A DNA stretch of 64,000 nucleotides from assembly GCF_000003195.3 (NCBI RefSeq), contig NC_012870.2, forward strand, positions 36,855,122 through 36,919,121, written 5' to 3'. Positions within the stretch are counted from its first letter, which is position 1; every line of letters starts with the position of its first letter. This document shows, piece after piece, positions 3,758 through 43,749 of this stretch. The notes below the pieces were generated by a model that saw nothing but the letters and a program-made list of their open reading frames with translations, was not told the origin of the DNA and did not search any database. The stretch comes from Sorghum bicolor. Its lineage: Eukaryota > Streptophyta > Magnoliopsida > Poales > Poaceae. The position numbers were made by a program, and so were the translations under genes.

Positions 3758-3762
3758 GATAC
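3758..3762. repeat. Target-site duplication GATAC, left copy
   Basis: GATAC at 3758-3762 recurs at 17888-17892 immediately outside the two LTR ends of TEK-1, marking a clean integrase-mediated insertion. Confidence 0.9.
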
Positions 3763-6700
3763 TGTGGCAGAACCTCCTAAGTGTTTGGGCCCACCGACAC
3801 CTGCCATTGTCCTAAGGACCTCTGACGGTGATGTCGGGAGTCCTCCCACTTTAGAAGTCCGATGAGCATGCTGGACGCTCATTCCACTGCTACCCGTGGC
3901 GTACCAAGCTGGCTCGTCCTGACCACTGGTAATGGTCAAACAACGAGAACTGTTTCTTCTCGCCCTTACAGGATAGCAAGTGGCCACCTTAACACCAGGA
4001 TCATTCGTTGCGAAGATAAAGCAGTAACTCAACAACACAGACCAAAATAATATTTCAGAGTGAAACAGCGGAAGTATTACATAACTTAATTTACAAAAGG
4101 AGTTCTTCCAAATAGTAGAGTGTTATTACAAGCCTGGTCCAACGGAGCAACTGAAACTTTAATATAGACAGAATAAATTACAGACCCTGCCCATGGGTCA
4201 CGCTCACTCTTCTTCGTCGTCAACCTCGACGACGGTCACACAACAGGGTCCGAAACAAGTCGGCTCCTGTGCTTCACCTGCAACAGGGGTATTGAAACCC
4301 TGAGTACGGGAGTACTCAACAAGACTTATCCGACGGGAAAAGAGGAGAATTTAGGGATGCAGGCTTAGGGTAGACAAGGGGTGGCTGGGCAAGGAGCCAA
4401 AGTGTTTTGCGTAAAAGCTTACTAGTAGTGCATCCTTATTTTCAAGTTTTACTCTGAACTCCTCCCTCGCAGAGGCAGAGGAATTCGAGGATAGTCTAAC
4501 TGGTTGTATCCCACAGACGAATCCGTGAGTTCCTAGTCCTATCATTAAGTATTATTTATTGATGGCCATAGCTTCATGTCGCTATGAGTCCGGGAATTGG
4601 GATCCGAACCTCATGAGACATTTTCCTTTTTCTCATTTTATCACTTAGTTGCATATTTAGCTACGAAGAGGGTCGAAGGAATTGAGTCTCCCAATCGGGG
4701 AGCAACGACGATTCGAATCGCTTAGCAATCCAGCTGGAGTTCCTAACCACCCGACATATGTAGAACTAAATCTTGCATATGTCAACCCAAATCAAGCTCT
4801 CCCCAAATTTGACCAGGTTCGCGGCACCCGAGAGCACAGTACTCCACCATCCTACAGCCGATCTAGATGTTTTCCGGTCATCTCAGATCCGTAAGGTGGG
4901 TACACACTACTCTCGCCATCTTTCCACTCCCAGTGCGCGAGTAGCTGTTCGCGTCGAGGGATCACAAGACCGGGCTTACCGAAGGCAAGTGGCTAGTACT
5001 ATAAATTCTCAACCCAGCAGGCCATCAACGGACCGGTCCTTAATCGACACAGTCGGAGACACTACTTTAAGACTCCATTCTTAGAGCAAGTCCACCGACC
5101 GGTCTCAAATTGAAACATCATTGATCATAAGTGTATCCCACAACAACCCTTCAAACTTTCTTGTTTGAAAACCTATCTAGTAGCAGGGCTAAGCATCGCT
5201 ACGCAGTTTTAAAATAAACAGGTGTCAAGGACAGGATAACAGATATCAAGGTAGTAAATGCAGCAAGTAGGTTAACCCAATTCTTAACTACATAATGCAG
5301 CATTTTCGATTTACAAGTGATAAAAGATTCAAAACATTCAAGGAGGGGTTAATGCATCCGGGGCTTGCCTTGGTTGCAGGGCAGAGAGGGACCCTCGGAG
5401 ACTTCCCAAGTCTCGGATCCGACTTCCTCGAACGGAGCACCGACCTCGGGGTTCGGTTCAACGGGCGCTCCTTCGGTCACGTGCACTATACGCAAAATGA
5501 TGAATGCTCATGATATGCGTATGACAATTATGCAAGAAGGGCCAAATCAAGTACAATTTGTCTTCCCAATGCAATATAGAATAATCAATAAATAAAGTTG
5601 TTTAATAACCTATTGTTTTTACCCAAGAGGTTGCATCTGTAAAATAAAATCTCTTTTAATTCATAATTAACCTGAATTAACTAATTATTAATCTTATTTA
5701 CCTTAATTAATTCTTAATTAATTACTAATGACAATAATTAAGCATTAAGGTCAAACAATAATTAAATGCCAAAGGTCATTAAGGTCAATGACCTCAGGTC
5801 ATCACATAATCCCAAAATCATTCAACCTTAATCATGAGAACTTAATTAATTATTGATTAATGGTTTTGGAATTATTATTTAAGTATTAAATAAGGGTTTA
5901 TTAGTATTCTAATCTAACAATACCCAAATGCCACCAAATTTTGTGTGGAGCCAGGGAATAATATTTAGAGGCTCCCCACAATTTTTGGTGATTTTTGAAC
6001 ATACAAATAAATTATTAAAAATCATACAAGTTTTATTTGCTAATTAAAAGGGCCAATTTTTGTATCCTTGCAAACTATTAGAAAGCAGAACCTAGTATTT
6101 TTCTTGGATCCTACATATTTCAGAGAGTTTATACAAAAATTCTCATTATTTTTGGATCAGCACAGAATTCACCATTCAAATTCAAACATTAAGCACTTTT
6201 AAACAAAAAGAAAAAGAAAAGGGCACTGTGCCACGCTGGCGGCCCGCTGGGATCCGGCCCAAGTCGGCCCGAGAGTGCTCTCCCGCGCGGACCGCGCGCG
6301 CTCTCTCTCACGCGGCCACTGACGGGCGGGTCCCGCCCGTCAGAGGCGTCTTCAACCTCCCACCACCGCTCCGGTGAGCTCCGGCTCCGCGCCGGTGAGC
6401 TCCCGGCCTGCGCGGCGGGGTGGGTTAGCATCTCCAGCGTCTCACGCAACCTCTAGGACACACGAGACCACCTCTACTCCCTCCTACCCTCCCTGTCCAC
6501 GCTCATGGCGGATGGCCGTCGCGGCCGAGCCAACGCCGGCCGCTTCAGGCGAGTAGAGCGTGAAGTAAGCGGCGCAACAGCACCAGAAGCTCACCGTGAC
6601 TTCAACGAAGCAAGAAACAGCAGCGGGGAGGCGCGGGGTGAAGCTGGCCACGGTGACGTGCTTGCGGTGGCGCTCGGCCGGAGTTGGGGGAGAAACGGCT

Positions 6701-7810
6701 CGGGTGGAAGCTACGGTAGGATAGAGCGTGTGTTTGGGGGCGCAATCGGTGGCGGGGCTCACGGCGGAGCTGCTGGGGTGCTCAGGTGGCTTGAAACGGC
6801 AGCGAGTGAGGCGAATTGAAGAGGCGCAGGGAGCTCGTCGGCGTCGGGGTTCAAGAAAAGGAAGAGGGGACTCTGGCCACTCGGGGCTTTATCCCCACAA
6901 CGGAAGGCGGTTCGCGGATGAGGACGTCCACGCGAAGCACAGCAGCAAGCAGCTGCGTGGCCAGCTGCGTGGCGGCGCGCGCGGAGGCGGCTCTGCCCCG
7001 GCGGCAGAGCACCCCCCCTGCCGATCACTGTAGCCGGCCTCATCCACTCAGTTTGTCTTTTTGTGAAATCCGACCAAAATTTGAACTAAAGACAAATTTC
7101 CACCAAAACAAAAGTTGTGCCAAATTTTGCAAGCTACAAATCATATTTAGGTGTCCCAAGCTGATTCTCACTGGAAATAGGTTAATTTTGCCAGACAGTT
7201 TGAAAATCAAACTCAAACCAAAGAAATTCCAAATTTTTGAATTGGGGCAAAACAGAATTTCCAAAATTACTTTTGATTTTGTATAACAACTTGAAAAACT
7301 CCCAACATGAAAGTTGCTCAACTTTTTGTGCTCTACAACTTTCATGTTGACCACTTTTCAAAATTCCAAATGGATTTTGAATTGGGCTTTTAAGTTGGAA
7401 AAGGGGACACTTTCTGGAAATCTGTATTTTCAAAATTACTTTGAATTTTGTGTTGAAACTTCAAAAACTCAAAACACCAAAGTTGTACATCTTGCCAAGA
7501 GCTACAACTTTGCTTTTGAACTCAACCTCAAATTTTGCTTAGTTTTTGACTTAAGCAAAAGGGGACAAATCTAGGATCCAGAAATCAGGGGTTTTCCCCC
7601 CCCATTTTCTCGGAAATCTTTTACCCTAGGGTTTTAGCAACCACACAAGCAACAACACACCACAGAAGCACACTCTACTTCCCTAAGCTCAAGCAATCAA
7701 AGTAAACTTATTTTAAGTTGATGCATACTACTGTGCTTTAACAATTATGGTTTGCAATGCTTATGATGACATGATCCGTTTTTAGTAACCGTAACATCAG
7801 GGATGTTACA
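3763..7810 (-). repeat. TEK-1 3' LTR
   Basis: Read on the minus strand it runs TGTAACATCCC... to ...TTCTGCCACA. It contains a TGAGTAC/GTACTCA hairpin at 4301-4318, an AT-rich tract at 5590-6190, and a CpG-rich block at about 6210-7050. Short open frames here (for example 6505-6819 and 3862-4050) recur unchanged in the other LTR and have no recognisable domain; I do not regard them as genes. Confidence 0.92.
4301..4318. other. Hairpin in TEK-1 3' LTR (TGAGTAC / GTACTCA)
   Basis: This is a perfect 7 bp stem with a 4-base loop. Matching hairpins occur at 14378-14395, 18045-18066, 33060-33081, 44197-44218 (one stem change) and 55651-55669, always about 320-540 bp from the 3' end of the LTR. Confidence 0.7.
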
Positions 7811-7824
7811 GCCCTTCCCCCTTA
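7811..7824 (-). other. Polypurine tract of TEK-1
   Basis: On the minus strand AAGGGGGAAGGGC directly precedes the TGTAACA start of the 3' LTR, the standard priming site for plus-strand DNA synthesis. Confidence 0.85.
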
Positions 7825-8016: not shown

Positions 8017-11000
8017 TCATATATTGTCCTGAAGAGAAGCATGGAATTCAGGAAAATTCTCTAGCAAGTAATCTTCAGATTCCCAGGTGGCTTCTTCTTC
8101 AGAGTGCTGGCTCCATTGTACTTTATACCATTTAGTGGTCGTCCTTCGAGTAACTCTAGCTTTTTGATCCAGTACTCGGATAGGATATTCCGAATAAGTT
8201 AGATCTGGTTCAAGCTTTACATCTTCAATATCTTGAACTCGATCTGGTACCCGAAGACACTTTTTCAGTTGAGACACATGGAACACATTATGTACCCCGG
8301 ATAATCGTTCGGGCAGTTTAAGGCGGTAAGCGACTTGCCCACATCGGTCAATAATTGGAAATGGACCAATGTAACGAGGCGCTAACTTGCCTTTAACACC
8401 AAAACGATTTACTCCTTTCATTGGGGATACTTTCAAATACACATGATCACCTTTGGCGAACTTTAATGGTCGACGTCTTTTATCAGCGTAACTTTTCTGT
8501 CGGGACTGAGCAACTTTCAAGTTATTTTGGATTTGTTTCACTTTGTTCTCAGTCTCTTTCACTAAGTCAACTCCGAAGAACCATCTTTCTCCAGGTTCTG
8601 ACCAGTGTAACGGAGTTCGACATCGGCGACCATACAGTGCCTCAAAGGGAGCCATTTTGATACTCTCTTGATAACTATTATTGTAGGAAAATTCTGCTAG
8701 AGGCAAGCAGTCATCCCACTTATCTGGAAAATTCAGGGCACAGGATCTTAATAGATCTTCTAGGGTTTGATTTACCCTTTCAGTTTGCCCACCAGTTTGA
8801 GGGTGGTAGGCTGTGCTGTATAAAAGCTTAGTGCCCAGGGACTTATGTAAACATTTCCAGAATTGGGAGACAAATTGTGTGCCTCTATCTGACACTATTG
8901 TCTTTGGCACCCCATGCAGACTTAGGATACGGTCGAAATAAATCTTAGCATAGGTGGAGGCAGGATACAATAGCTTTACCGGCAGAAAATGTGCTGTTTT
9001 GGTGAGACGATCTACTATGACCCAAATGGAATCAAAGCCCTTGGCCGTCTTGGGCAATCCTACTATGAAATCCATACTTATGTCATCCCATTTCCATGCG
9101 GGGATAGGCAAAGGTTGCAACTCCCCAGCGGATTTGAGATGAATGGCTTTGACCTTTCGGCAGGTGTCACACTGGGCCACATAGCGAGCTATTTCTATCT
9201 TCATTTTTGTCCACCAAAACCTTTGCTTCAGGTCCTGATACATCTTATTGCTTCCCGGATGAATGGAATACCTCGTGGTATGAGCTTCATCCAGGATTTG
9301 CTGACGTAGCTCAGGTACCCTTGGAACCACTAACCGGTTCTTGAACCAGATTACTCCCGCATCATCCACCTTTAAGTCTGTGGGTGCTCTATTAGAAATC
9401 TTCTCTTTAAGATGTCTCATGCCTTTGTTTTCTTTTTGTGCCTTTATGATTTGAGCCTCGAGATTGAAATCGATCTTTAGATTGGAAAGGCTTCCTTGGG
9501 AAATCATTTCTATTCCCAAGTTCTCTAGCTCTTGGCACAAAGTTATATCCCTAGGCGTCACTGTTAAGCAATTACAGTGAGCCTTACGACTGAGGGCATC
9601 CGCTACTACATTTGCCTTGCCAGGGTGATAATGCACCTCAAGGTCGTAGTCTTTAATTAGTTCTAGCCACCTTCGCTGGCGCATGTTAAGCTCGGCTTGA
9701 GTAAAGATATACTTCAAGCTTTTGTGATCTGTATATAGATGACATGTGTTTCCCAACAAATAATGACGCCAGATCTTCAATGCATGTACCACGGCGGCTA
9801 GTTCGAGATCATGGGTCGGGTAATTCTCTTCATGAGGTTTGAGTTGCCTGGAAGCATATGCAATTACGCGACCCTCCTGCATCAGCACACAGCCTAACCC
9901 GATTCCTGATGCGTCACAATATACATCAAAGGGTTTTTCAATATCTGGCTGGGCTAAGACAGGTGCAGTTGTCAACAACCTTTTCAGAGTCTGAAAAGCT
10001 TGCTCACATTGGGGTGACCAAACAAATTTTGTTTGACTTTTGAGCAAGGTTGTAATTGGTTTGGCGACTCTGGAAAAGTCCGGGATAAAACGACGGTAAT
10101 ATCCCGCCATGCCCAGAAAACTACGGACCTCATGTACCGTAGTCGGGGGTTTCCAATTCAACACATCTTCTACCTTGCCTGGGTCTACAGCGACTCCTTC
10201 CGCTGATAATACATGACCCAGGAAATGGACTTTGTCCAGCCAGAACTCACATTTGCTGAACTTGGCATATAGCTGATGCTCCCTGAGACGGGTCAGCACG
10301 ATTCTCAAATGTTCAGCATGTTCCTTCTTAGTTTTGGAGTAAATCAAGATGTCATCGATGAAGACGACCACAAATTTGTCTAGTTCTGGCATGAAGACAG
10401 AGTTCATCAGGTACATAAAATGGGCCGGTGCGTTGGTCAACCCAAACGACATCCCCAAGTATTCATACAGCCCATAACGGGTTGTAAAAGCTGTCTTGGG
10501 TACATCTTCCGGCCTAATTTTAATTTGGTGGTACCCTGATCTCAAATCAATTTTTGAGAACACTTTGGCCCCAGCTAGCTGGTCAAACAATAAGTCAATG
10601 CGGGGCAAAGGGTACTTGTTCTTAATCGTCACCTCATTTAGAGGACGATAGTCGACACACAGCCTTAATGTCTGATCTTTCTTCTTCACAAACAAGGCTG
10701 GGCAACCCCATGGAGAAGAACTGGGCTGAATAAAACCCTTCTGCAACAACTCTTGTAATTGGGCTTTTAATTCGGCCAGCTCTTTCGGTGCCATTCTGTA
10801 GGCCCTTCGAGATATTGGGGCCGTTCCTGGTTTCAATTCTATACTGAATTGTACATCCCGGTCCGGAGGCAGACCTGGTAAGTCTTCAGGAAATACATCC
10901 GGGAAATCTCGAACTACCGGGATATCTTTAACTTCAGACACATTAGCGGCATGAACTTGCCCAATTGTCCGTTTGGGAGTAACTAATTGGATTAGCAAGT

Positions 11001-12549
11001 AGGAATTCTCATTGGGCAATGGGATTTTAATAGTTCGGTGCAAAGTGTCTAGCACAACCCCTCGTTGCGCCATCCAGTTCATGCCTAAGATGACATCAAT
11101 CTCTTGGTCCTTAAGAACAATCATGCTAGTAGGAAAATTGTGTCCACCAAATTCGATGGGTACTTGGTGAACCATTTCTTTAGACATCAGCCGTCCTCCT
11201 GGCGACTGTATATAAAAATGATCTTGCGTTTCCCCAATGGGTATGTCATGCTTTAACACAAAGGTGCGATTGATAAATGTATGAGATGCACCAGAATCAA
11301 AGAGCATTAAAGCAGGATGCTTCGCAACAGGAAACGTACCCATCATCACTGGTTCACCCTCTGGAATTGTCTCCACTTCAGTATGGAAGACTTGCCCTGT
11401 CTTCTTTACCGGTCTACCTTTCTGTACCTGTTGCCCTTTTTGAACCCCAGTTCTGAACTGACTCGGCTGGGGTTGGCCCATAGGTGGCCTTGGAAAGGTA
11501 GGGTTGGTTTGGCGGGGAAAAGGGCACTCTTTAGAGAAATGCCCAGGCTTACCACAATTGAAGCAAGGGTAATTGTGGCTGGGCGGAGCAATAGGGCGAA
11601 CACCCGGGGCGTTCGGCTGGCGTGGTGCAAAAGCGATGGCAGTAGGTCGAGAGTATACCTGCTGCCCGGGTCTGTACTGTGGAGGGGAGAAAGGACCACG
11701 ATAAGATGACGGCGCTTGGAAACGTCCGTGGCCCTGTGGATGATAAATGATCCTCTGGCGCTTTTGACCGCGACCAGAGAAAGAAGAGGAAGCAGCCTTC
11801 TTCTTGGCTTCCTTATGTTTCCTATTCTTTTCCTCAGAGGCGATGGCAATATTTACCGCCTCATAGAAAGTAGCATTTTGGCAAGTGGTCATCATGGTCT
11901 GAAGTTTAGTATTTAGACCACGCATGAAACAGGCTTTCTTCTTTCTGTCAGTGTTCACATGATCCGTGGCATATTGAGAGAGATGATTAAACCTTGCCAC
12001 GTATTCCATAACACTCTTATCGCCTTGCTGCAAGGCGAGAAACTCTTCGGCCTTCTTGGCCATGAGCCCTTCGGGGATGTAGTGGGCGCGAAACGCGTCC
12101 CTAAACTCGGTCCAGGTAACTTGGTGTCCGGGAGCTTGAATAGCTAAAAAGTTCTCCCACCAGGCACCTGCAGCTCCCCGAAGCTGCTGAGCTGCAAATA
12201 AGGGTTTCTGAGTTTCTGAACACTGAATCAAACTGAACTTATGCTCCATGGTTCGGAGCCAGTCGTCCGCTTCTAAAGGCTCATCGGCCTTAGTGAACAC
12301 CGGGGGCCTGGTCTCGGTAAAATCCACATACCGAGCCTCTCCATCCCCGTTGCGCGATGCCCTAAAGTTTGGAGCAGGGTGTGGTTGACGCTGTGCTAGC
12401 TCGCGCAGCAAGCGAGCATTGTCAGTTGTGGCACTTAACAAGACAGCAATGGCGTCAGCCAAAGAAGGTGGAGCAGGTGGAGGGTTGGGGATATCATCCC
12501 CTCCCTGGGATGTCCCAACCCCATCGGATCCGCGAGTACGCATCGGCAT
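8017..12549 (-). CDS. gag-pol: TEK-1 gag-pol polyprotein with chromodomain, intact
   Basis: The single open frame is 1,510 residues. Gag capsid is at about 75-215; the CCHC knuckle is C329-x2-C332-x4-H337-x4-C342. The protease has DSGAS at 418-422 and ILGM at 487-490. RT spans about 570-745 with FIDD at 730-733. RNase H acidic residues lie near D879, E916, D941 and D984. Integrase has an HHCC finger (H1090, H1097, C1127, C1130) and catalytic D1160, D1221, E1257 (35 residues between the last two), followed by a GPF module near 1395. The C-terminal chromodomain covers about 1455-1502 (WYKVQW, ATWE). Such chromodomains bind methylated histone H3 in related elements. Gag and pol share one frame without stop or shift. 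I take the first of two close Met codons (12549); CAG precedes it directly. Confidence 0.95.
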
Positions 12550-12762
12550 CTGTTACAAGAATCGTAGATACCTGTTATCACGTAAAATTCATAACCCAGA
12601 ACATATCTTACATTCTTTCATTCACTTATTAAACATTAGTTCGACACACCCAGAGTAAACAGGTTCAACTTCTCAAACCAAAAGAAAACTTATATGACAA
12701 ACCCGAACCCCACTACGGCAAGCTAAGACCCCTACAACGACGTTGCCCTCGGTTTCACCGAA
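12550..12762 (-). other. Spacer between pre-gag ORF and gag in TEK-1
   Basis: About 210 bases with no coding region. On the minus strand it ends in a TTCTTGTAACAG that abuts the gag ATG, a plausible 3' splice site. No other signal is seen. Confidence 0.5.
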
Positions 12763-13467
12763 CTAATCGGTGTGGCCAGAACTGTAGCCCGGGTCGTCAT
12801 TGCCATCATCTTGATTACCCCCTGGGTTGTGGTCATCGGGGTCGGACTCCTCTTCATCACTGAGGCCTGGGTCGGGTTCTCCATCATCTGCCAACTCGCC
12901 ATCTGTATCCATTTCTCCTTCGCCAGGAGGTGGGTGGAGTTGATGATACAGATCAAATGCAATATCACGATACTGCATAGCCAAGTCATTGACTGTATCC
13001 AAGTGATGTGCCAGCTCCAGTTTCTCCAGCTGGAGCTGGTCCTCTCGTTGCCACGCGACATCCCGTTGTGCGGTGACCGTGGCCGCCATCTTCACATACA
13101 AATCCTTAAGATACTTTGCCTTGCCCAACTTTGCGTTCATCCTAGTTAGCTCATGCCTATGGGTGCTCCTAGCTTCTTCCTCTCGGGCAATGGCTGCATT
13201 CCGCTCCTCCACCATCCGGGACAACATAGCTTCACAATTTTCCGTAGCTTGTTTTTCTTTGGCCAGTTGAGCTTTAAGTTTGCCAATCTCCATAACATTA
13301 TACATTCTCTCTCTCATCACCTCAGTCAACTCGGCGGACAACCTGTCCACCTCCTGCTGAGGCGGTGAACGGCTACTACTGGCTTGATCACTGCGTGGAG
13401 CTAGCTGATGTCGGGGAACTCCTTTTGGACCGGTCCGCTTACGCGGGGTCTGCTTCTGACGAGCCAT
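12763..13467 (-). CDS. Pre-gag protein of TEK-1 with histone H3-like tail, coiled coil and acidic end
   Basis: This intact 234-residue ORF lies between PBS and gag. Residues 2-23 follow the histone H3 N-terminal tail: A, R, K4, Q5, T6, R8, K9, T11, G12, K14, P16, R17, Q19, L20 and A21 (H3 numbering) are all present, with one extra residue after the K14 equivalent. Residues about 24-37 are Ser/Pro-rich, 38-178 are strongly helical with heptad-like Leu/Met/Ala spacing (coiled coil), and 184-226 are very acidic. No Gypsy core domain is present. Extra ORFs near gag are known in plant Gypsy elements, but I know of none described with an H3-like tail. Possible roles (chromatin mimic, chaperone-like acidic protein, splice-regulated accessory) are inference. 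The minus-strand sequence before ATG is pyrimidine-rich and ends CTCTACAG, an acceptor-like site. Confidence 0.8.
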   Translation of the reverse strand: MARQKQTPRKRTGPKGVPRHQLAPRSDQASSSRSPPQQEVDRLSAELTEVMRERMYNVMEIGKLKAQLAKEKQATENCEAMLSRMVEERNAAIAREEEARSTHRHELTRMNAKLGKAKYLKDLYVKMAATVTAQRDVAWQREDQLQLEKLELAHHLDTVNDLAMQYRDIAFDLYHQLHPPPGEGEMDTDGELADDGEPDPGLSDEEESDPDDHNPGGNQDDGNDDPGYSSGHTD

Positions 13468-13825
13468 CCTGTAGAGGGTAAGTTTAGATTAGTAAGAGAG
13501 ACCTTAAAGGTTAGCAAGAATAGGATTGATTCTATTCACCCAACCCAACAAGGAGGAAGGAACTTAACCAGTTAATACATCATGATGCATGCACGAACTT
13601 ACGATTCCTACTAACAATTCGTAACATTATTACTTTAAACTTTTACAACATAGGGCAATACTTTATGTTGCTCCTCCATACCACTTCAAAAATTCTAAGA
13701 AAGCCTATAGACAGGGGTAGGTTAGGACTAAGCACTTGGACTCAAAATAGGCAGGTTCATAGTATTAGTTCCAAACGAATTTTTGAAGTTTTTCAAAAGC
13801 TTCAGCAGTCATCTTAGCAACGAAT
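13468..13825 (-). other. 5' leader of TEK-1
   Basis: The untranslated leader between PBS and the pre-gag ORF, about 360 bases. Near its end (minus strand) a CTAAT, a pyrimidine-rich run and CTACAG sit within 30 bases of the ATG, the layout of a branch point and 3' splice site. Otherwise I see no motif. Confidence 0.5.
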
Positions 13826-13837
13826 GCTCTGATACCA
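13826..13837 (-). other. Primer-binding site of TEK-1
   Basis: On the minus strand TGGTATCAGAGC lies two bases after the 5' LTR end. This is the usual plant PBS complementary to the 3' end of initiator methionine tRNA. Confidence 0.9.
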
Positions 13838-13839
13838 GC

Positions 13840-16800
13840 TGTGGCAGAACCTCCTAAGTGTTTGGGCCCACCGACACCTGCCATTGTCCTAAGGACCTCT
13901 GACGGTGATGTCGGGAGTCCTCCCACTTTAGAAGTCCGATGAGCATGCTGGACGCTCATTCCACTGCTACCCGTGGCGTACCAAGCTGGCTCGTCCTGAC
14001 CACTGGTAATGGTCAAACAACGAGAACTGTTTCTTCTCGCCCTTACAGGATAGCAAGTGGCCACCTTAACACCAGGATCATTCGTTGCGAAGATAAAGCA
14101 GTAACTCAACAACACAGACCAAAATAATATTTCAGAGTGAAACAGCGGAAGTATTACATAACTTAATTTACAAAAGGAGTTCTTCCAAATAGTAGAGTGT
14201 TATTACAAGCCTGGTCCAGCGGAGCAACTGAAACTTTAATATAGACAGAATAAATTACAGACCCTGCCCATGGGTCACGCTCACTCTTCTTCGTCGTCAA
14301 CCTCGACGACGGTCACACAACAGGGTCCGAAACAAGTCGGCTCCTGTGCTTCACCTGCAACAGGGGTATTGAAACCCTGAGTACGGGAGTACTCAACAAG
14401 ATTTATCCGACGGGAAAAGAGGAGAATTTAGGGATGCAGGCTTAGGGTAGACAAGGGGTGGCTGGGCAAGGAGCCAAAGTGTTTTGCGTAAAAGCTTACT
14501 AGTAGTGCATCCTTATTTTCAAGTTTTACTCTGAACTCCTCCCTCGCAGAGGCAGAGGAATTCGAGGATAGTCTAACTGGTTGTATCCCACAGACGAATC
14601 CGTGAGTTCCTAGTCCTATTATTAAGTATTATTTATTGATGGCCATAGCTTCATGTCGCTATGAGTCCGGGAATTGGGATCCGAACCTCATGAGACATTT
14701 TCCTTTTTCTCATTTTATCACTTAGTTGCATATTTAGCTACGAAGAGGGTCGAAGGAATTGAGTCTCCCAATCGGGGAGCAACGACGATTCGAATCGCTT
14801 AGCAATCCAGCTGGAGTTCCTAACCACCCGACATATGTAGAACTAAATCTTGCATATGTCAACCCAAATCAAGCTCTCCCCAAATTTGACCAGGTTCGCG
14901 GCACCCGAGAGCACAGTACTCCACCATCCTACAGCCGATCTAGATGTTTTCCGGTCATCTCAGATCCGTAAGGTGGGTACACACTACTCTCGCCATCTTT
15001 CCACTCCCAGTGCGCGAGTAGCTGTTCGCGTCGAGGGATCACAAGACCGGGCTTACCGAAGGCAAGTGGCTAGTACTATAAATTCTCAACCCAGCAGGCC
15101 ATCAACGGACCGGTCCTTAATCGACACAGTCGGAGACACTACTTTAAGACTCCATTCTTAGAGCAAGTCCACCGACCGGTCTCAAATTGAAACATCATTG
15201 ATCATAAGTGTATCCCACAACAACCCTTCAAACTTTCTTGTTTGAAAACCTATCTAGTAGCAGGGCTAAGCATCGCTACGCAGTTTTAAAATAAACAGGT
15301 GTCAAGGACAGGATAACAGATATCAAGGTAGTAAATGCAGCAAGTAGGTTAACCCAATTCTTAACTACATAATGCAGCATTTTCGATTTACAAGTGATAA
15401 AAGATTCAAAACATTCAAGGAGGGGTTAATGCATCCGGGGCTTGCCTTGGTTGCAGGGCAGAGAGGGACCCTCGGAGACTTCCCAAGTCTCGGATCCGAC
15501 TTCCTCGAACGGAGCACCGACCTCGGGGTTCGGTTCAACGGGCGCTCCTTCGGTCACGTGCACTATACGCAAAATGATGAATGCTCATGATATGCGTATG
15601 ACAATTATGCAAGAAGGGCCAAATCAAGTACAATTTGTCTTCCCAATGCAATATAGAATAATCAATAAATAAAGTTGTTTAATAACCTATTGTTTTTACC
15701 CAAGAGGTTGCATCTGTAAAATAAAATCTCTTTTAATTCATAATTAACCTGAATTAACTAATTATTAATCTTATTTACCTTAATTAATTCTTAATTAATT
15801 ACTAATGACAATAATTAAGCATTAAGGTCAAACAATAATTAAATGCCAAAGGTCATTAAGGTCAATGACCTCAGGTCATCACATAATCCCAAAATCATTC
15901 AACCTTAATCATGAGAACTTAATTAATTATTGATTAATGGTTTTGGAATTATTATTTAAGTATTAAATAAGGGTTTATTAGTATTCTAATCTAACAATAC
16001 CCAAATGCCACCAAATTTTGTGTGGAGCCAGGGAATAATATTTAGAGGCTCCCCACAATTTTTGGTGATTTTTGAACATACAAATAAATTATTAAAAATC
16101 ATACAAGTTTTATTTGCTAATTAAAAGGGCCAATTTTTGTATCCTTGCAAACTATTAGAAAGCAGAACCTAGTATTTTTCTTGGATCCTACATATTTCAG
16201 AGAGTTTATACAAAAATTCTCATTATTTTTGGATCAGCACAGAATTCACCATTCAAATTCAAACATTAAGCACTTTTAAACAAAAAGAAAAAGAAAAGGG
16301 CACTGTGCCACGCTGGCGGCCCGCTGGGATCCGGCCCAAGTCGGCCCGAGAGTGCTCTCCCGCGCGGACCGCGCGCGCTCTCTCTCACGCGGCCACTGAC
16401 GGGCGGGTCCCGCCCGTCAGAGGCGTCTTCAACCTCCCACCACCGCTCCGGTGAGCTCCGGCTCCGCGCCGGTGAGCTCCCGGCCTGCGCGGCGGGGTGG
16501 GTTAGCATCTCCAGCGTCTCACGCAACCTCTAGGACACACGAGACCACCTCTACTCCCTCCTACCCTCCCTGTCCACGCTCATGGCGGATGGCCGTCGCG
16601 GCCGAGCCAACGCCGGCCGCTTCAGGCGAGTAGAGCGTGAAGTAAGCGGCGCAACAGCACCAGAAGCTCACCGTGACTTCAACGAAGCAAGAAACAGCAG
16701 CGGGGAGGCGCGGGGTGAAGCTGGCCACGGTGACGTGCTTGCGGTGGCGCTCGGCCGGAGTTGGGGGAGAAACGGCTCGGGTGGAAGCTACGGTAGGATA

Positions 16801-17887
16801 GAGCGTGTGTTTGGGGGCGCAATCGGTGGCGGGGCTCACGGCGGAGCTGCTGGGGTGCTCAGGTGGCTTGAAACGGCAGCGAGTGAGGCGAATTGAAGAG
16901 GCGCAGGGAGCTCGTCGGCGTCGGGGTTCAAGAAAAGGAAGAGGGGACTCTGGCCACTCGGGGCTTTATCCCCACAACGGAAGGCGGTTCGCGGATGAGG
17001 ACGTCCACGCGAAGCACAGCAGCAAGCAGCTGCGTGGCCAGCTGCGTGGCGGCGCGCGCGGAGGCGGCTCTGCCCCGGCGGCAGAGCACCCCCCCTGCCG
17101 ATCACTGTAGCCGGCCTCATCCACTCAGTTTGTCTTTTTGTGAAATCCGACCAAAATTTGAACTAAAGACAAATTTCCACCAAAACAAAAGTTGTGCCAA
17201 ATTTTGCAAGCTACAAATCATATTTAGGTGTCCCAAGCTGATTCTCACTGGAAATAGGTTAATTTTGCCAGACAGTTTGAAAATCAAACTCAAACCAAAG
17301 AAATTCCAAATTTTTGAATTGGGGCAAAACAGAATTTCCAAAATTACTTTTGATTTTGTATAACAATTTGAAAAACTCCCAACATGAAAGTTGCTCAACT
17401 TTTTGTGCTCTACAACTTTCATGTTGACCACTTTTCAAAATTCCAAATGGATTTTGAATTGGGCTTTTAAGTTGGAAAAGGGGACACTTTCTGGAAATCT
17501 GTATTTTGAAAATTACTTTGAATTTTGTGTTGAAACTTCAAAAACTCAAAACACCAAAGTTGTACATCTTGCCAAGAGCTACAACTTTGCTTTTGAACTC
17601 AACCTCAAATTTTGCTTAGTTTTTGACTTAAGCAAAAGGGGACAAATCTAGGATCCAGAAATCAGGGTTTTCCCCCCCCCATTTTCTCGGAAATCTTTTA
17701 CCCTAGGGTTTTAGCAACCACACAAGCAACAACACACCACAGAAGCACACTCTACTTCCCTAAGCTCAAGCAATCAAAGTAAACTTATTTTAAGTTGATG
17801 CATACTACTGTGCTTTAACAATTATGGTTTGCAATGCTTATGATGACATGATCCGTTTTTAGTAACCGTAACATCAGGGATGTTACA
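13840..17887 (-). repeat. TEK-1 5' LTR
   Basis: 4,048 bp, the same length as 3763-7810 and offset from it by a constant 10,077 bases. Differences I can see include bases near 14218, 14402, 14620, 17367 and 17508, plus G/C run lengths near 17668-17680. It carries the same hairpin (14378-14395) and CpG-rich block (about 16290-17125). It would drive transcription leftward into the pre-gag ORF and gag-pol. Confidence 0.92.
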
Positions 17888-17892
17888 GATAC
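17888..17892. repeat. Target-site duplication GATAC, right copy
   Basis: Matches 3758-3762 and lies directly after the CA end of the TEK-1 5' LTR. Confidence 0.9.
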
Positions 17893-27235: not shown

Positions 27236-29541
27236 AAGTTCAAGATCAAGATCAACATATCAAATACCGATTTCGACCTCGAGAACATCATCCCTGTGAT
27301 GGAAGCCAATCTCAGAGATGAGCAGAAGCAAGCTATTGCAAAAGCTATGGAGGATTACAAGCAGCAATGTTTGAAGTCCTTCAGTATCAACAGGAGTGGC
27401 GAAGTAATCTAGAAGGAAGCACTACCTGTGCCTCGGCAGTTCACTTTTGAAGCCAATCCTGGTAAACTCCAAGACATGGTCGACAATGCCATCAATCGTG
27501 CCTTGATCAACCAAGCTGGTGTGCTGTCCAACACGGTTTTCAACACCGTGGCTAGAACTTTCAAACAAGGACAATTGCAACCAAATTATGTGGGCCCTAT
27601 CTATCATCAGCCAGGATCACCAGTTGTCATAGCTCCATCGGCTACAGAAACTACTACTCCTCCAAGCACACTAGGACTCACTAATGTGCAATCTACACCG
27701 ATGAAACTAATCCATCAACTTTAGATGAGCAAATCAAGCTTGCCACAGATCTATTAGCATCGGCAATGTCGGGGTCTGTTCCTCCCAACTGGTGGGGTTA
27801 TGGTATGCCTCCGGAGATGATGTTGAAGACTCCTGGAACATCTGAAGTGGCTGACATGACAGGCAAGGCTCCTATGGCATCGGCACCTCCCAATCTGCTG
27901 ATGAATCAGAGTCCCTAGTATACCACAACTACTACTGCAAGACCTTACACTGGGAATTCTCAAGCTCCAACGTTCCAAATGCCTAACGCATCGGCAGATT
28001 CAATGCCGACGCAGCAGAGGTTTATGACACAGCCAGGGTTTGTCAATTCAATGATGATGCCCAATCATCAGCCATCGGTGGGGTTCATGCCGATGAATGC
28101 TAACAGTGGATGGACGGGGCAGTTAGTCTTTCCACAAATGCCTCAATAGAATCATCAGGCTTCAGGGTTTCAATAAGGCCAGATCCAACCTGGGTTCCAG
28201 AATCAAGGGTTGGCCAACCAGCCGATGAATCTTGGTCAACAGTTTGGTGGTCAGACAATGAACCCCATGTTCCATGCAGATCGTGCGCCTCAGCGGCACG
28301 CGGAAGTTTATCAGCAGGCGCCAGATCCACAACCACCCCATCGGCAAGATGCTGATGCTTATTGGGCCAATAAGATTGCTGAAGTAATGAGAGACCAATT
28401 TGGGATAAAACCCAAAGTCAACACTTACTCTTATCGGACGCCGTATCCTCCTGCATACGATTTAATTCCACTTCCAAATCAGTACAAGGTACCAGATTTC
28501 ACTAAGTTTTCTGGACAGGATGATACATCGACTATGGAACATGTCAACAGGTTTATCATCCAATGTGGAGAACCTGCTAATAGGGATGAATTGAGGGCTC
28601 GTCTGTTTTCATCATCTTTATATGGATCGGCTTTCACCTAGTTTATATCGTTGCCTCCTAATTCAGTGATTACTTGGGCCGATATGGAGAAGCAGTTCCA
28701 CAAGTACTTCTTCTCTGGAGTTCATGAGAAGAAAATTACTAATTTGGTCAGGTTGAAGCAGCGCAATGATGAATCAGTTGAATGCTTTGTGCAGAGGTTG
28801 CGGGAAGTCAAGAATAAATGCTACAGCCTGGTTCTGGACGATCGGCAGCTAACCGATTTGGCTTTTCAGGGTTTGTTGCCACATATCAGAGACAAGTATG
28901 CTTCTCAAGAGTTCGAGAGCCTAAGTCACTTGGGGCAGAGGATTTCCGACCAGGATATCAAACCCTTTGAACCTAAGAGAGCATGGAACAAAAAGGTATC
29001 ATTTGTTGATGAGGTAGCAATCTCAGATTCTGATGAAGAGCCAGTCATCGGCTTAGCCGAGTGGGTGAAGAACAAAAAGCCGATGTCTTGTCCTTTTGGG
29101 CATAAAGAGCCAGAGAAGTTTGCATTTGACATTACTAATGCTGACAGGATATTTGACTTTCTACTTCAGGAAGGGCAAATCAAATTGTCGCCTAATCATG
29201 TTATTCCATCGGCCGAAGAATTAAAGAAGATGAAATACTGCAAGTGGCACAATGCAACTTCTCACAGCACCAATGAGTGCAAGGTTTTTAGACAATAGCC
29301 GCAATCGGCTATTGAATCTGGGAGAATTAAATTTGATAGTTCCAAAGCTCAGAAGATGATGAAGATCGATCAACATCCTTTCCCAACAAATATGTTGGAT
29401 GCTAAGGGAAAAACCAAGGTCTTGACGTCGGAAACAGCTGAAAGGAGTGCATCGGTAGATCCTCAGCATCAAATTACTGCTGCCGATGCCAAAGGAAAAG
29501 GCTTGATCCAAGAGGGAACTAACTCAGGAAGGCCTCCCTGA
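27236..29541 (+). pseudogene. gag: Broken gag of TAT-2
   Basis: The N-terminal part (27236-27724) is in one frame with a TAG at 27410-27412. From about 28150 the frame shifts. Capsid motifs are SGQDDTSTMEHVNRF (28510) and SVECFVQRLREVKNKCYS (28770). The zinc knuckle near 29238-29280 has the form C-x2-H-x4-H-x4-C. In-frame TAG codons at about 28639 and 29296 replace probable Trp and Gln, and a TGA follows near 29539, all explainable as C-to-T changes. A Met/Gln/Pro-rich low-complexity region (27730-28350) precedes the capsid. Confidence 0.8.
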
Positions 29542-29550
29542 TCCGGTATT

Positions 29551-30090
29551 GTGATAACACATAGAAGGCCTCGGGAGACTTGGCAGCAACGTGAGGATCG
29601 GTATCGGCGCCAGCAAGAAGACTATTGTCGGGAAGAAGAAAGACGACGACAGGAGTGGAATCGGCACAAGGATCACTGGAACTGCCCATTCTTTATCCAT
29701 TGCTGGGAGCAGAACATCAAATTACCCACAGTTAGAGATTGCCCTGAGTGCAATGGTTATGATCGGTATGACAGATCCGATCGGCGCTATCACGATGATG
29801 ATCGGCGATTTAATGGGCCGATTAGGGAGAGAGCGTCAGTTCATGATCGGCTGGGGGGTAGACTCAGTGTACACGACAGGCTTGGTGATCGTGTTGAATA
29901 TTTTCCCAGGAACCAGGAAGAGCTTGAAGAGATGGCTAATGCACGAGTGCCCGATGAGTTCATATTTTGTAGAGACGCTAATACTTATCGGATGGAGTCA
30001 AGGGAAAGTCGTCGCCCATCGGCAAGGCAGTCGCCACTTCCCCCATGGTGTCCAGAGGGGTTGACCAAGACACAGAAAAGGAGACTGTAG
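29551..30090 (+). pseudogene. Arg-rich and Cys-rich box of TAT-2, between gag and protease
   Basis: A 179-residue open stretch in the gag frame. It has a highly charged Arg/Glu/Gln segment, then CPFF-x2-CW...DC-PEC, a second potential metal-binding motif distinct from the gag knuckle. This is followed by Asp/Arg-rich repeats with two VHDRLG copies. Related Tat polyproteins have a similar CPFF...CPEC box here. It ends in TAG at about 30088. Confidence 0.7.
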
Positions 30091-30192
30091 CACAAAAGAT
30101 GAGAAGAGCTAAGCAGGGGTGAGAACTCTGGCCAGTTTGGGGATCAGCAACAACCGGATCCTAAGGGGAAAGGGCCATCGGCAGATGTTAAC

Positions 30193-30858
30193 ATGGTATT
30201 TATGTTGCCGATGGAGTTTCTTGCGCCATCCAGTGATGATGAGGAGTTGGAGTTTTCCGACCAGATAGCTCAGTTGGCTCTGGATCCGATGACAGCTATC
30301 TTTGAAAAGCCTGCCGATAATGAAAGGCGGCATCTTAAAGCTCTGTTTATCAAAGGAAGAGTTGATGGTCAGCCGATGACCAAGATATTAATTGATGGTG
30401 CGGCTGCTATTAACATCATGCCGTATACAATCTATCGGAAGCTTGGAAAGGGAGATCAAGATTTGACCAAGACCGATATGATGCTGAAAGACTTTGAAGG
30501 GAATGTGTCTCCGGTTAAGGGAGCAATCTGCGTCGAGTTGACCATCGGCAGCAAAACCTTGCCGATGACCTTCTTTGTGATCAGTGGAAAAGGTGCTTAT
30601 AATTTGCTGCTAGGGAGAGATTGGATTCATGCCAATTGTTGCATCCCATCTACAATGCACCAGTGCTTGGTTCAGTGGGTAGGTGACAAGATTGAGATTG
30701 TCTCGGGAGATTCTTCTTATGTCATTGCATCGGCAGGAGCAGACACCTATGAAAGAAATAGGTGTATCTCGGGAGAAATTTGGGAGAAGGATTTCCTCAA
30801 AGTTGTCGATTATGAAATTCCACCGATCCAAGCAGTCGGTTCTGATGAGGAGTTTTAA
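30193..30858 (+). pseudogene. Protease of TAT-2
   Basis: Retropepsin fold: ILIDGAAAIN where the active site is expected, MPYTIYRKLG, then NLLLGRDWIH about 70 residues later. The catalytic triad reads D-G-A rather than D-S/T-G. Tat proteases often have D-G-G, so the third residue appears substituted here. A stop closes the frame at 30856-30858. Confidence 0.75.
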
Positions 30859-31006
30859 TGGATAGATTCGCCGATGATGGAAAACTAGGCTAGGGGTTCA
30901 CATCGCCGATGATTTGGTAGAGGTAGATATAGGTAGTGGTGATAAACCTAGACCTACTTTTATTAGTGCTAAGTTAAATTCTGAGTGTAAGCAGTAGTTA
31001 ACCGAT

Positions 31007-32350
31007 ATGTTAAAGGAATATAAAGATTGCTTTGCTTGGGATTATACTGAGATGCCTGGTTTGGACCGATCGATTGTTGAACATCGGTTACCCATCAAGT
31101 CTGGATTTCGGCCACAACAACAGCCAGCTCGCCGATGTAATCCTAATATTCTTCATGATATTAAGGCCAAAATAACCAAACTTATTGAAGCTAAATTTAT
31201 TCGGCAGTGTCGGTATGCCGAGTGGATTTCCAATGTTGTTCCAGTCTACAAGAAAAATGGGAAGCTTCGGGTTTGCATTGATTTCTCGAATCTTAATAAA
31301 CCTACACCGATGGATGGTTACCCAATGCCGGTTGCCGATCTGCTAGTTGATGCTGCGGCTGGGCATTGGATCATCAGCTTTATGGATGGCAATGCAGGAT
31401 ACAATCAAATATTCATGGCTGAAGAAGATATTACAAAGACTGCATTTAGATGTCCTAGTCATGTTGGGTTGTTTGGATGGATAGTCAAGACCTTTGGCTT
31501 CAAAAATGCTGGCGCTACTTATCAGAGGGCTATGAATTTTATCTTTCATGAGTTCATCGGCAAGCTGGTGGAAATTTATATTGATGATGTGGTGGTTAAG
31601 TCTGGGGATTTCGCAAAACATCTTGCCGATTTGCGAAAGGTGTTGGAATGTACAAGGAAGCATGGTTTGAAGATGAACCCTAACAAGTGTGCATTTGGTG
31701 TATCGGCAGGACAATTACTTGGTTTCATGGTGCATCAAAGGGGGATTGAAATTAGTAGGAGATCCATTGATGCTATCAACAAAATAGTTGCTCCTACCAA
31801 CAAAACTGAGCTCCAGTCCTTGATCGGCAAGGTACATTTTATCAAGAGGTTTATATCTAATTTGTCTGGTAAAATTCGTGCTTTCAGTCCTTTACTCAAA
31901 TTGAGAGCCGATCAAGAGTTTGTGTGGGGGAAAGAGCAACAGTTGGCTTTAGATGAAATTAAGAATTATTTGATAAATCCTCCGGTTCTGATTCCACCTC
32001 AGCAAGGAAAACCCTTCAGATTATATTTATCTACCGATGGGATGGTCATCGGTTCGGCTTTGATTCAAGAATTTGAAGGGAAGGAGCGTGTAATTTACTA
32101 TTTAAGCAGAAGATTGATTGATGCCGAGACCAGGTATTCGGCCATTGAAAAGTTATGTTTATGTCTTTATTTCTCATGTATTAAGTTGAGGCACTATTTG
32201 TTATCGGCTGAATGCACTGTTATATGCAAAGATGATGTGGTCCGGTATATGCTATCTATGCCGATCATGAGTGGTAGGATCGGTAAGTGGATTTTGGCAC
32301 TGTCGGAATTCGATCTGCATTACGAATCGGCTAAAGCGATTAAAGGACAG
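31007..32350 (+). pseudogene. RT and RNase H of TAT-2
   Basis: An open frame from 31007 with CFAWDYTEMPGL, RQCRYAEWISNVVPVYKKNGK, and the catalytic IYIDDVVVKS near 31577-31606, so the Asp pair is intact. Connection (LIGKVHFIKRFISN) and the first RNase H part (FRLYLSTDG) follow. RNase H stops at about 32350, where the frame jumps to the end of integrase. The frame differs from the protease frame, so there is also a shift between 30858 and 31007. Confidence 0.85.
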
Positions 32351-32513
32351 ATTTGGGAAGTTGTCTCCCAATTGGGAAGGTCCTTATCGGATAAATCGAT
32401 CTGCTCCTGGCAATGCTTATATTTTAGAAACTCTCAAAGGAGTTGAGTTTCCCAGGGCATTGAATGGCAAATATTTAAAGAGATATTATCCCAGCATATG
32501 GCTGGATGCATGA
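32351..32513 (+). pseudogene. Integrase C-terminal stub of TAT-2
   Basis: In the third frame GKLSPNWEGPYRI, a typical integrase C-terminal GPY-like module, is followed by FPRALNGKYLKRYYP and a stop at 32511-32513. The zinc finger and the whole D,D,E core are absent. The deletion joins RNase H to this stub near 32345-32352 and must have removed well over 1 kb. Confidence 0.75.
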
Positions 32514-35600: not shown

Positions 35601-37105
35601 GGAATCACTTCATTTGGATCTCTAAAACTCTAGATATGGATTTTTATAAAAACAGCATTGGCTCTGCAAAACAGTGAACCAGAGGGGTGAGAGAGGAGAG
35701 GCTAACACCCGGCACCCACGCGTCAATGAGACAGTGACAGGGGAGAAGCTCGCCGCCGGCAAAGCTCAACGACGACGAGGTTTCCGCCGGATCCAAGGGC
35801 ACCTACGTGTCCCTCTCATCAAGGCGACTTTGTTGACCTACTTTACCCGCGCTCTACTGGACCCTAAGGTGCTCGCCGTCGGAAATGGCGGAGCGGCGGC
35901 GCTGCGCGGCGTTACGCCGGCGGATCTAGGCAATGGCGACGCGGTAGAGCTTGCGGACGAGCAAGAACGACTCATGGCGAAGCTATAGGAAGAAGAATCA
36001 CGGCCAGAGGTGAACCAGAGAGGTCTGGCCACGTTGCCGGTGATCTCTGTGAACTCCGACGAGGTGGAGCTCGCGGTGTAGTTGGCAATGCGACCTCACC
36101 GGTGCTTGGCTAAGGGAATGGAGTAGAATTTGAGGTAGAGGATGTCGAGGCGGAGCTCTGGGCGGGCTGGCTTGGCCGGAGACGTGGTGGAATGGCCGGA
36201 GAAGCTCGCCGAAGTGCGGCGGAGCTCACCGAGGCGACGGAGGAGTGAAATGAGCAGCGTTGAGCGAGTGGAGGTCGCGTCAGAGGCGTCCACTCAGTGC
36301 GTGGCGACTTAGGGACGCAGTGGGAGCTGACAGGCGGGGTCGTCGACGGCGTACGGCCGACACCTGGCCAGACACGCGGCGGCGGACGGCGATTGTCCAA
36401 CTGAATCGTTTTTCTGAATCGGCCGATTACAGTGACTGAAACCCGATCTTCAACAACATTTTACTCTCAGCTCAATCGATGGTTTTGGCTGGGGTTTGAT
36501 CCTCTAGATAGAGCTACACGAGTTCTACAATTTTGATTACAAGATCAAAGCCTAACTCGGTCTGGATTTCAATCTACAAGGCTCCCAATCTCCCTATGTC
36601 GAAACTGTGTGATTCCAGACTTAGCCAAATTTGGCTAAGTGCGAAATCAGCCATGATTTTTGGCTTGTGAGTGAATTTTGGATGTGTTCTAAGCTTTTTC
36701 ATAAAATGGCATATATATAACTTTTGTAGCTTATGAAATTCTATACAACTTTGTTTCAGGTGTCAAAGACATGCAAGGTCTCTAACATTACTTTCATAAA
36801 ACATCTTTGAAAGGAGGTTTAGGGGGTCAAATAGGTTATTCTAGGGTTAACCATGACTTAGGGGTATTTTTGGACAAAACCTTCAACATGAACTTAGTTC
36901 AAAATGATGTTCTAAACATGATTAAAGTGTTTTGAACAAGATTGCATACTTACATGTATGGGTCACTCACTAAAGTCACTCAAAACAAGTCACACAAGCA
37001 ATTTAATCACATGTGCATGTAATAGATGGCATGTGATCATGGTATGATGCTTATGTTGATGCAATGCTCATGGTTAACATGCAAGCTAACACTAGGAGTG
37101 TTACA
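32616..37105 (-). repeat. TEK-2 3' LTR
   Basis: 4,490 bp. On the minus strand it starts TGTAACACTCCTAGTG and ends near GGACGGTTCTGAA with the last bases lost or changed. It contains the hairpin at 33060-33081 and a CpG-rich block at about 35690-36400. No coding region is supported. Confidence 0.88.
33060..33081. other. Hairpin in TEK-2 3' LTR
   Basis: CTGAGTAC/GTACTCAG around GAGAAT, identical to 18045-18066 in TEK-solo-1. A donor-like GGGTAAGTCTAG lies next to it on the sense strand. Confidence 0.7.
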
Positions 37106-41504: not shown

Positions 41505-41894
41505 CTGCACAAGGCATACCAAGTGACCGTTTAGGACAACAGATATAATTGCCATGAACTTCAATTGCTGCCATACGGAATTTAATGAAGTAAATTCACA
41601 TAATTTAAGGCACAATAATCCATGTACAACAAGAGATTATCATCCATGACACTTGGTTAATCTCGCGATCATTCACAGCCACAATTCTCAGGGATTAAAG
41701 ACATCGCAGGGAATTATTTAAGCTCAACATAAATATGGAGCGTCACAAATAGGTGCATAGGGTTACATAGAGTCATTGCCACAACTTAAGTTTTATAGGA
41801 GGGGCACCATGGCCAAACACATAGAGTTTTCAGATTACATGTCCATTACACAAAGAGATGGAAACTGATACATGATCATAGAATTATTGCTAGG
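41505..41894 (-). other. Spacer between pre-gag ORF and gag in TEK-2
   Basis: About 390 bases without a supported coding region. On the minus strand it ends in GCCTTGTGCAG immediately before the gag ATG, an acceptor-like site as in TEK-1. Confidence 0.45.
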
Positions 41895-42833
41895 CTACAT
41901 ATCTTCCTCAGATTCTCCATTAGAAATGATGCAATCATCCTGGTCTTCCTCACTAGGAGCTTCTTCATGATTAAAAGGGGCTGGATGTGGAATAGGATTT
42001 ATGATATTATTTAAGCGATGGACATCTAACTGCAGCTCAGCAATCCTAGTAATCAGCTCTTCCTCTCTCATTTCAGCATGGAACAAGGCTCTAACTCTAG
42101 CAGCTTCTCTATTTTCAGCCAAGCGCATAGCCTTATCTCTCTCTCTAGTCATTTGCATCATGCGGGCTTGTGCCTCATTGCGCTCTCTAACTGCGTTCTC
42201 AACTTGGTTGCGGCGGGCTTGCAAAGCGGTGTGATAGTTTTGGATTTCAGCTTGTGCATCCATAAAAGCCTTGCGATGCTTGCGCACTCGCTTGCGTAGT
42301 TTGCGCTGCCCAACTTGTGCTTGTTGGAGCGCTAGCATGGCGTCTATGTAGTTGTCCTGGCGTACATAGTGCAGCTTAAGTACCGCCAGCATGGCACTCA
42401 TGGCAGGGCTAGAGGTATATCCTAGCAAGGTTTCTCTCATCTCTAAAGGCTCATTTCATATCTGAGACACAAATGCGTCAGTCACACTCACTCTAGGGAT
42501 GGATCCAGCTGGGCCATTCACTAGTTCATCACCATAATCTTGGCATATCTCTAACAAAACCTCTAGGGCTGCTACTTGGGCACCCTCCCAAGGAGTTTGG
42601 CCATCACACTCTACTATCCAACCTAGCCACTATGGGTTATTGGGACAAGGGGGAACTGTAATCTGGACATCTACCCAAGGTAATGCTCCTGCATGCTCAG
42701 ACTCCGTCCAAGTGTACTTAGGTGGTTCCTCATATCCAACTGAACTTAGCACCCTCCACAACAAAGTAGGAGTGCCAAACATTTTCAGAAAAGTCTCACT
42801 TGCGTGCCGGGCTGCCATCTGTAGAAACACCAC
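41895..42833 (-). pseudogene. Pre-gag ORF of TEK-2: dsRNA-binding-like domain, coiled coil, acidic end (two stops)
   Basis: One 313-codon frame interrupted by TAG at 42630-42632 and TGA at 42456-42458. Codons 20-97 follow the helix-strand-strand-strand-helix pattern of a dsRNA-binding domain: a first helix with L..VL...G, then PPKYTWTE, two hydrophobic strands, and a last helix EGAQVAALEVLLEI. Codons about 160-290 are Arg/Glu/Gln/Ala-rich and helical (coiled coil), and the end is acidic. TEK-1 has an ORF of the same place and coiled coil/acidic layout but a different N-terminus. Minus-strand TTTCTACAG precedes the first ATG (codon 6), so codons 1-5 may be intron. Family assignment is inference from the pattern. 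Confidence 0.6.
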
Positions 42834-43735: not shown

Positions 43736-43747
43736 GCTCTGATGCCA
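43736..43747 (-). other. Primer-binding site of TEK-2
   Basis: Minus-strand TGGCATCAGAGC, two bases from the 5' LTR; one base differs from the initiator-Met site of TEK-1 (C for T). Confidence 0.8.
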
Positions 43748-43749
43748 GC

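Follow-up and report, generated by a model that had tools for sequence, protein, structure and literature searches.

The N-terminus of a chromovirus protein encoded ahead of gag is truly similar to the tail of histone H3, is conserved in divergent relatives, and is under purifying selection. This tail is probably of H3 origin. We propose, as a reading on which our own confidence is evenly divided, that it is a captured H3 tail retained as a putative docking peptide for host proteins that bind H3 tails. If this is true, the protein would be a mimic of great abundance (at least 150 copies were scored in this genome alone), and the element may pose as a histone to host chromatin proteins. The protein, called ORF0 here, was noticed in a preliminary description of a 64,000-nucleotide stretch of Sorghum bicolor DNA (G000:C1:36855122-36919121; hereafter the window), and the genome searched in the present study is a 709-Mb assembly of 846 contigs.

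The LTRs of the element carrying ORF0 were recognized as a 4050-bp self-match with 7 mismatches (3762-7811 versus 13839-17888). Trimming by hand to TG..CA ends leaves a 3' LTR at 3763..7810 and a 5' LTR at 13840..17887, both of 4048 bp and on the minus strand, and the flanks carry the target-site repeat GATAC beside the 3' LTR (3758-3762) and beside the 5' LTR (17888-17892). At the grass rate of 1.3e-8, the LTR mismatches correspond to roughly 70,000 years, which makes this a young element. Its leader sequence includes TGGTATCAGAGC (13826..13837, minus strand), which we take to be a primer binding site of the initiator tRNA-Met type. A single open frame of 1510 amino acids (8017..12549, minus strand) carries Pfam matches to gag, CCHC, protease, RT, RNase H, integrase and chromodomain. 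A Ty3/gypsy gag-pol with an integrase and a C-terminal chromodomain is characteristic of Tekay/Del elements, a label that rests here on the preliminary description and on resemblance to Retrosat2/RIRE8 in the accounts given by the available portions of PMC3485330 and PMC6317226. Elsewhere, the window holds gag, protease and RT-RNase H pieces left from another gypsy-type element (28651-32446, plus strand) and a 388-amino-acid open frame (62576-63742, minus strand) in which two aspartic-protease-like stretches are visible by eye and for which no Pfam match was obtained at E 0.001.

ORF0 lies between the 5' LTR and gag (12763..13467, minus strand), begins with an ATG, and is intact over the 234 residues originally assigned to it, whereas the plus-strand frame from 12763 is not open. 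It is a sense ORF that is open in many copies, as is the ORF0 or 5' aORF of grass Tekay elements. The distance from ORF0 to the gag ATG is 213 nt, and we rejected readthrough from one to the other because this gap has stops in all three frames. Among the scored copies, which are the best 150 of 1482 first-look candidates and therefore lean to intact copies, 144 lack an in-frame stop and 6 contain stops.

Splice-like signals are found ahead of both starts. The leader, which has eight upstream ATGs, contains a possible splice donor (GTAAGT; 13597..13602, minus strand), and this hexamer occurs somewhere in the leader of 47 of 53 copies. A candidate acceptor stretch (13469..13494, minus strand) ends in TACAG one base ahead of the ORF0 ATG, where 48 of 53 copies read TACAGG, 3 read CACAGG and 2 read TATAGG. 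Another acceptor-like candidate, TTCTTGTAACAG (12550..12561, minus strand), stands directly ahead of the gag ATG, which is preceded by TAACAG or TAGCAG in 48 of the 50 copies with a script-found gag start. In a gapped alignment of seven subfamily copies, 62 of 945 sites differ in the last 45 nt before ORF0 (0.066), compared with 864 of 6265 in the remaining leader (0.138). As judged from these signals, alternative splicing could expose both the ORF0 and the gag starts. Between subfamilies (copies L002, L033, L036, L039, L046, L047 and L052), the fourfold-degenerate sites of ORF0 differ at 297 of 714 positions (0.416) versus 0.128 for the noncoding leader, an excess that perhaps reflects leader constraint or CpG decay.

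The first 26 residues of ORF0 read MARQKQTPRKRTGPKGVPRHQLAPRS, and the H3 register begins at the Met. Residues 2-23 (13399..13464, minus strand) share 15 of 21 positions with H3 A1-A21 once a single residue inserted after K14 is allowed for, just as was first reported. Changes at T3, A7, S10, G13 and K18 are also as listed in the preliminary description, but A15, which is absent from that list, is changed as well. The alignment score of 65 compares with a mean of 12.7 (sd 6.3) for shuffles that retained the Met and the composition, and none of 20000 shuffles reached 65. Each of 12 ORF0 proteins tested gave the same outcome (0 of 20000), with z values of 6.6 to 8.9. When used alone against the PDB, P0001 matched H3 chains at E 0.30-0.35 and worse, ranked under an unrelated chorismate mutase chain (0.079), and P0053 yielded 17 matches at E up to 1, all of them H3 (best 0.091). 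A profile of eleven ORF0 N-termini (A4), hand-picked from homologues as complete starts spanning the families, found H3 with a best E of 2.3e-7. The 60 listed among its 140 matches are all H3, H3 variants or peptides, H3/CENP-A chimeras, or Cse4 (7k78).

These results bear on the possibility that the likeness arose by chance or by convergence on a short basic motif. The match is indeed short, and the best H3 chains found with the two single sequences have unremarkable E values. However, the shuffles of all 12 proteins and the profile value led us to reject chance, and divergent families have a match that starts from the Met, so we consider chance or convergence highly improbable. The likeness of the tail to H3 exceeds what its composition would give, and resemblance beyond composition is what the sequence of an H3-tail mimic is expected to display.

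The remainder of ORF0 does not resemble a histone. An AlphaFold2 model built with 46 sequences (mean pLDDT 80.2, pTM 0.42) predicts a single long coiled-coil-like helix at residues 36-177 (12937..13362, minus strand), with blocks within 41-180 at mean pLDDT 91-98. The N-terminus and the acidic end are both of low confidence and unstructured in the model. Model and composition together delineate an acidic disordered C-terminal tail at residues 178-234 (12766..12936, minus strand), which has 21 D+E and no K+R. The proposal that a coiled coil and an acidic tail follow the H3-like start is thus borne out by the predicted helical middle and disordered acidic end. The histone fold domain that defines the H3 family is missing from this single-helix model, and no PF00125 match was found up to E 1 for ORF0 or for seven relatives. 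All Pfam matches for ORF0 and these relatives fall below the curated cut-offs; the strongest, to ATG16 (E 4.6e-7, relative P0095), is taken as coiled-coil likeness. An enzyme fold for ORF0 was rejected on the basis of these sub-threshold matches and the one helix in the model.

The preliminary description called for an alignment of related pre-gag ORFs, and complete N-termini were found to retain the H3-like start across divergent families. Whole P0001 used as a query yielded 58 proteins. Six ORF0s trimmed to begin at GVPRHQ were made into a profile, such that residues 1-15 were unused and residues 16-26 were used; it yielded 2041 proteins at E 0.01 or better, and complete starts among the best 120 of these are still H3-like although the query lacked residues 1-15. 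Altogether, 164 proteins were examined, and 108 were retained that carry a GVPxHQL-type anchor with at least 12 residues ahead of it; the 56 dropped were late-starting fragments or truncated. The 108 N-termini form five clusters at 60% identity, and 68 belong to the family D cluster, whose members mostly have one extra residue ahead of R2, so the conservation counts that follow lean to family D.

The H3 residue is kept most often at P16 and L20 (107 of 108 each), T6, K9 and A21 (106 each), followed by Q19 (101), T11 and R17 (98 each), S10 (95), G12 (91), T3 (86), R8 (83), A7 (74), R2 (69) and A1 (38). At K4, 42 N-termini have K and 65 have R, and only 9 have Q at Q5. The K14 position has K in 18 and mostly I or H, K18 is replaced by H in 106, and G13 is replaced by P in 102. 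The loss of S10 noted at the outset therefore holds for the window subfamily, but not for the relatives overall. Some relatives (MARTKITARKSTG) are more H3-like than the window copy, and P0053 matches 12 of the first 13 H3 residues counting the Met (MARTKQTARKSTG). That some distant families are closer to H3 over this stretch than is the window copy is expected of descent from an H3 tail.

The tail is also the best conserved part of the protein between families. Among six divergent proteins, hand-chosen to cover the five clusters, 270 of 345 aligned pairs are identical in the tail (residues 2-24; 78%), as opposed to 68 of 202 in the linker (34%), 395 of 1293 in the helix (31%) and 192 of 696 in the acidic end (28%). 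In 96 of 106 starts, the nearest Met is followed by A, P, S, G, V or T, any of which permits its removal. The other starts have L (4) or R (6) after the Met, the R cases arising from a Met inside the tail. A search led by the tail (P0058 residues 1-45) returned 9 proteins, of which five were already known and four were new with known bodies; no new body bearing the tail was among them. Pattern scans gave 2 and 13 matches in viral contigs and 57 in prokaryote contigs, none of which was confirmed.

The site-by-site pattern is informative regarding a simpler role for the tail, in which it serves as a nuclear localization signal alone and ORF0 with its cargo is imported without any mimicry of chromatin marks. 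H3 tails bind importins, and one captured by the element would be expected to deliver ORF0 and its cargo to the nucleus; residues 1-26 of ORF0 include 8 K/R and no D/E. An import signal should not, however, need near-invariant T6, P16, Q19, L20 and A21, while K14 and K18 are commonly replaced. We regard import as the sole role of the tail as unlikely, although a plain role of this kind would explain much of the same data.

Selection on the tail within the genome was evaluated with loci ranked by similarity to residues ~61-185 of P0047, which cover the helix and acidic part and exclude the tail. The 70 loci comprise the 30 best and 40 others chosen from the same list, outside the 150-copy list, to gain divergence. 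ORF0 is intact at 57 of these loci and not intact at 13. The intact loci, the window copy, and L052 (which failed the filter but was intact in the first sample) give 59 sequences, 57 of them distinct. The intact-frame filter removes nonsense changes and leaves missense changes. Of 1596 pairs, 1066 are diverged, and in these the tail (codons 2-24) has a pS of 0.509 and a pN of 0.051 (pN/pS 0.10). The corresponding ratios are 0.09 and 0.08 for the helix halves, 0.12 for the linker and 0.20 for the acidic end. The test of purifying selection that had been suggested for the tail against the rest of the protein thus reveals a tail that is not neutral and that is constrained about as strongly as the helix. 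Within this genome the tail is unexceptional, since pN/pS is lower than in the tail for 111 of 211 sliding windows. The first sample contained 60 copies, of which 52 were intact (45 distinct), and its ranking drew partly on the whole protein including the tail. Its values were 0.11 (tail) and 0.10 (rest), or 0.17 and 0.21 when five diverged copies were taken.

A tail pS this high combined with so low a pN indicates that the protein is conserved and not the DNA, and conservation at the DNA or RNA level was ruled out as the cause on this basis. Synonymous sites are so diverged that the proposed codon comparison with host H3 genes probably could not distinguish capture from convergence. Among the 57 distinct ORF0s, K4, Q5, T6, K9, T11, G12 and Q19 are invariant, and T3, A7 and S10 are never the H3 residue. 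The ARKS core around K9 is mostly PRKR in the window subfamily, with A7 and S10 replaced in 57 of 57. With T3, A7 and S10 replaced, canonical H3K4/H3K9 recognition would weaken in this subfamily.

A second chromovirus in the window (32618-48192, minus strand; LTRs about 97.5-97.8% alike) has 56-60% of gag-pol residues in common with the first element over the aligned parts. Its ORF0 region (41895..42818, minus strand) is a broken ORF with in-frame stops at 42632-42630 (TAG) and 42458-42456 (TGA), and its N-terminus is not H3-like. This ORF0 also begins directly after TTTCTACAG and reads MAARHASETFLK... By eye, its last part is coiled-coil-like with an acidic end, but comparison of this part with the first ORF0 revealed no convincing likeness (BLASTP E 0.64; an 18-column profile match at 10% probability). 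Because this sister element has a different ORF0 at the same place, the H3 tail is a feature of a single kind of ORF0 and not of every chromovirus. Related copies without the H3-like positions had been named in advance as counting against a mimic. This condition applies in part, to the sister ORF0.

The sister also provides some encouragement for the idea that the tail acts as a basic arm that binds RNA or DNA for packaging or chaperoning, with its H3 likeness a relic of its source. By eye, the start of the sister ORF0 looks like a dsRNA-binding domain, and the available portion of PMC11728184 infers nuclear signals and proposes a dsRNA-binding-like fold for maize and sorghum Tekay aORFs. The layout of the window ORF0, in which a basic arm is attached to a long helix and the other end is acidic, would suit such a role. 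Against this idea, the uncharged residues of the tail are constrained too, and the first two pieces of the sister ORF0 have no Pfam match up to E 1. We judge a nucleic-acid-binding arm to be quite unlikely.

The suggestion that the element's chromodomain reads the tail, which would link ORF0 to integrase, derives from the fact that both are encoded by the same element. The reported C-terminal chromodomain is present but weak (8020..8214, minus strand; 24.9 bits versus a Pfam cut-off of 25.1). Its cage sites, located by sequence alignment alone with Clr4, CDYL and yeast chromo-domain protein 1, retain the Trp, have His at the third site, and place an aromatic residue at the first site only by means of a one-residue gap. 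The three-residue aromatic cage of methyl-lysine-reading chromodomains is therefore incomplete, and the first site is not conserved in the sister, whose chromodomain has Lys there. Self-reading was rejected on these cage residues in both elements; moreover, the sister keeps a chromodomain without having the tail. We consider it very improbable that the element reads its own tail. According to the available portion of PMC6317226, the first cage residue and usually also the last are missing from type II chromodomains, which have no known partner, and the cage motif is absent from the chromoviruses of seed plants. The conserved H3 tail carried by another protein of the element offers a concrete, testable alternative, in which a histone tail is displayed by the element and not read by it.

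We favour a docking peptide over import alone and over nucleic-acid binding. The course of events that we infer begins with the ancient capture, most probably from an H3 gene of the host, of a canonical H3 N-terminal tail. Removal of the initiator Met would leave a free N-terminus at the exposed end of a coiled-coil-like rod whose far end is acidic. If the rod forms a multimer, the T6-R8-K9 and P16-R17-Q19-L20-A21 blocks would be offered, probably in several copies, to host H3-tail binders, which may be readers, writers or import factors. As a result, the proteins or RNA of the element could be brought to chromatin, or host proteins could be sequestered. Binding of host H3K4/H3K9 enzymes or readers by the putative mimic, as originally envisaged, is possible. 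Several observations argue against a docking peptide, namely that T3, A7 and S10 are replaced in the window subfamily, that K4 is mostly R and Q5 mostly changed, that most of family D has an extra residue ahead of R2, that the sister is without a tail, and that the tail shows no excess constraint within the genome. A more far-reaching version is conceivable, but we lean against it: a large plant chromovirus lineage would make a true histone-tail mimic, a coiled-coil protein showing several Met-processed H3 N-termini that are modified or read by host H3K4/H3K9 machinery, thereby steering particles to chosen chromatin or drawing silencing factors off the element's own copies.

Part of the extra ORFs of chromoviruses, found only in Poaceae, were reportedly described by Steinbauerova et al. 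2011 (Genetica 139:1543) as partially similar to the histone H3 gene, and the H3 resemblance itself is probably already in print. The register from the start to A21, the site-by-site conservation, and the selection on the tail were not found in the available portions of the literature searched. Likewise, that literature, which was mostly without subscription journals, yielded no account of these ORFs acting as mimics. The word 'histone' occurs 0 times in PMC3485330, PMC11728184 and the review PMC7264820. According to its available portion, the survey in PMC6317226 counted only extra ORFs of at least 250 codons, so a 234-residue ORF0 would be missed.

The ORF0 or 5' aORF of grass Tekay elements has already been described in the available portions of PMC3485330 and PMC11728184. 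Compared by those descriptions, the ORF0s of rice Retrosat2, RIRE3, RIRE8 and FRetro3, of maize elements, and of sorghum Sb7 are likewise sense ORFs before gag in elements with long LTRs and grass hosts. The accessible text of PMC3485330 gives ORF0 as found only in grasses and infers enzymes for it, an inference that receives no support from the window ORF0. The histone mimics of viruses and host proteins, including H3K9-type mimics and H3-tail-like linkers, also present a short H3-tail-like peptide on a non-histone protein (available portions of PMC10611923 and PMC5663869). ORF0, a putative mimic, differs from these in that its likeness lies at the true N-terminus, extends over 21 H3 residues, and occurs in an LTR retrotransposon. 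Finally, H3L, from a hAT transposon of Pyrenophora tritici-repentis, is another case of a transposable element with an H3-like sequence. As described in the available portion of PMC3538342, however, H3L belongs to a DNA transposon and includes the globular histone domain, whereas ORF0 has the tail only.
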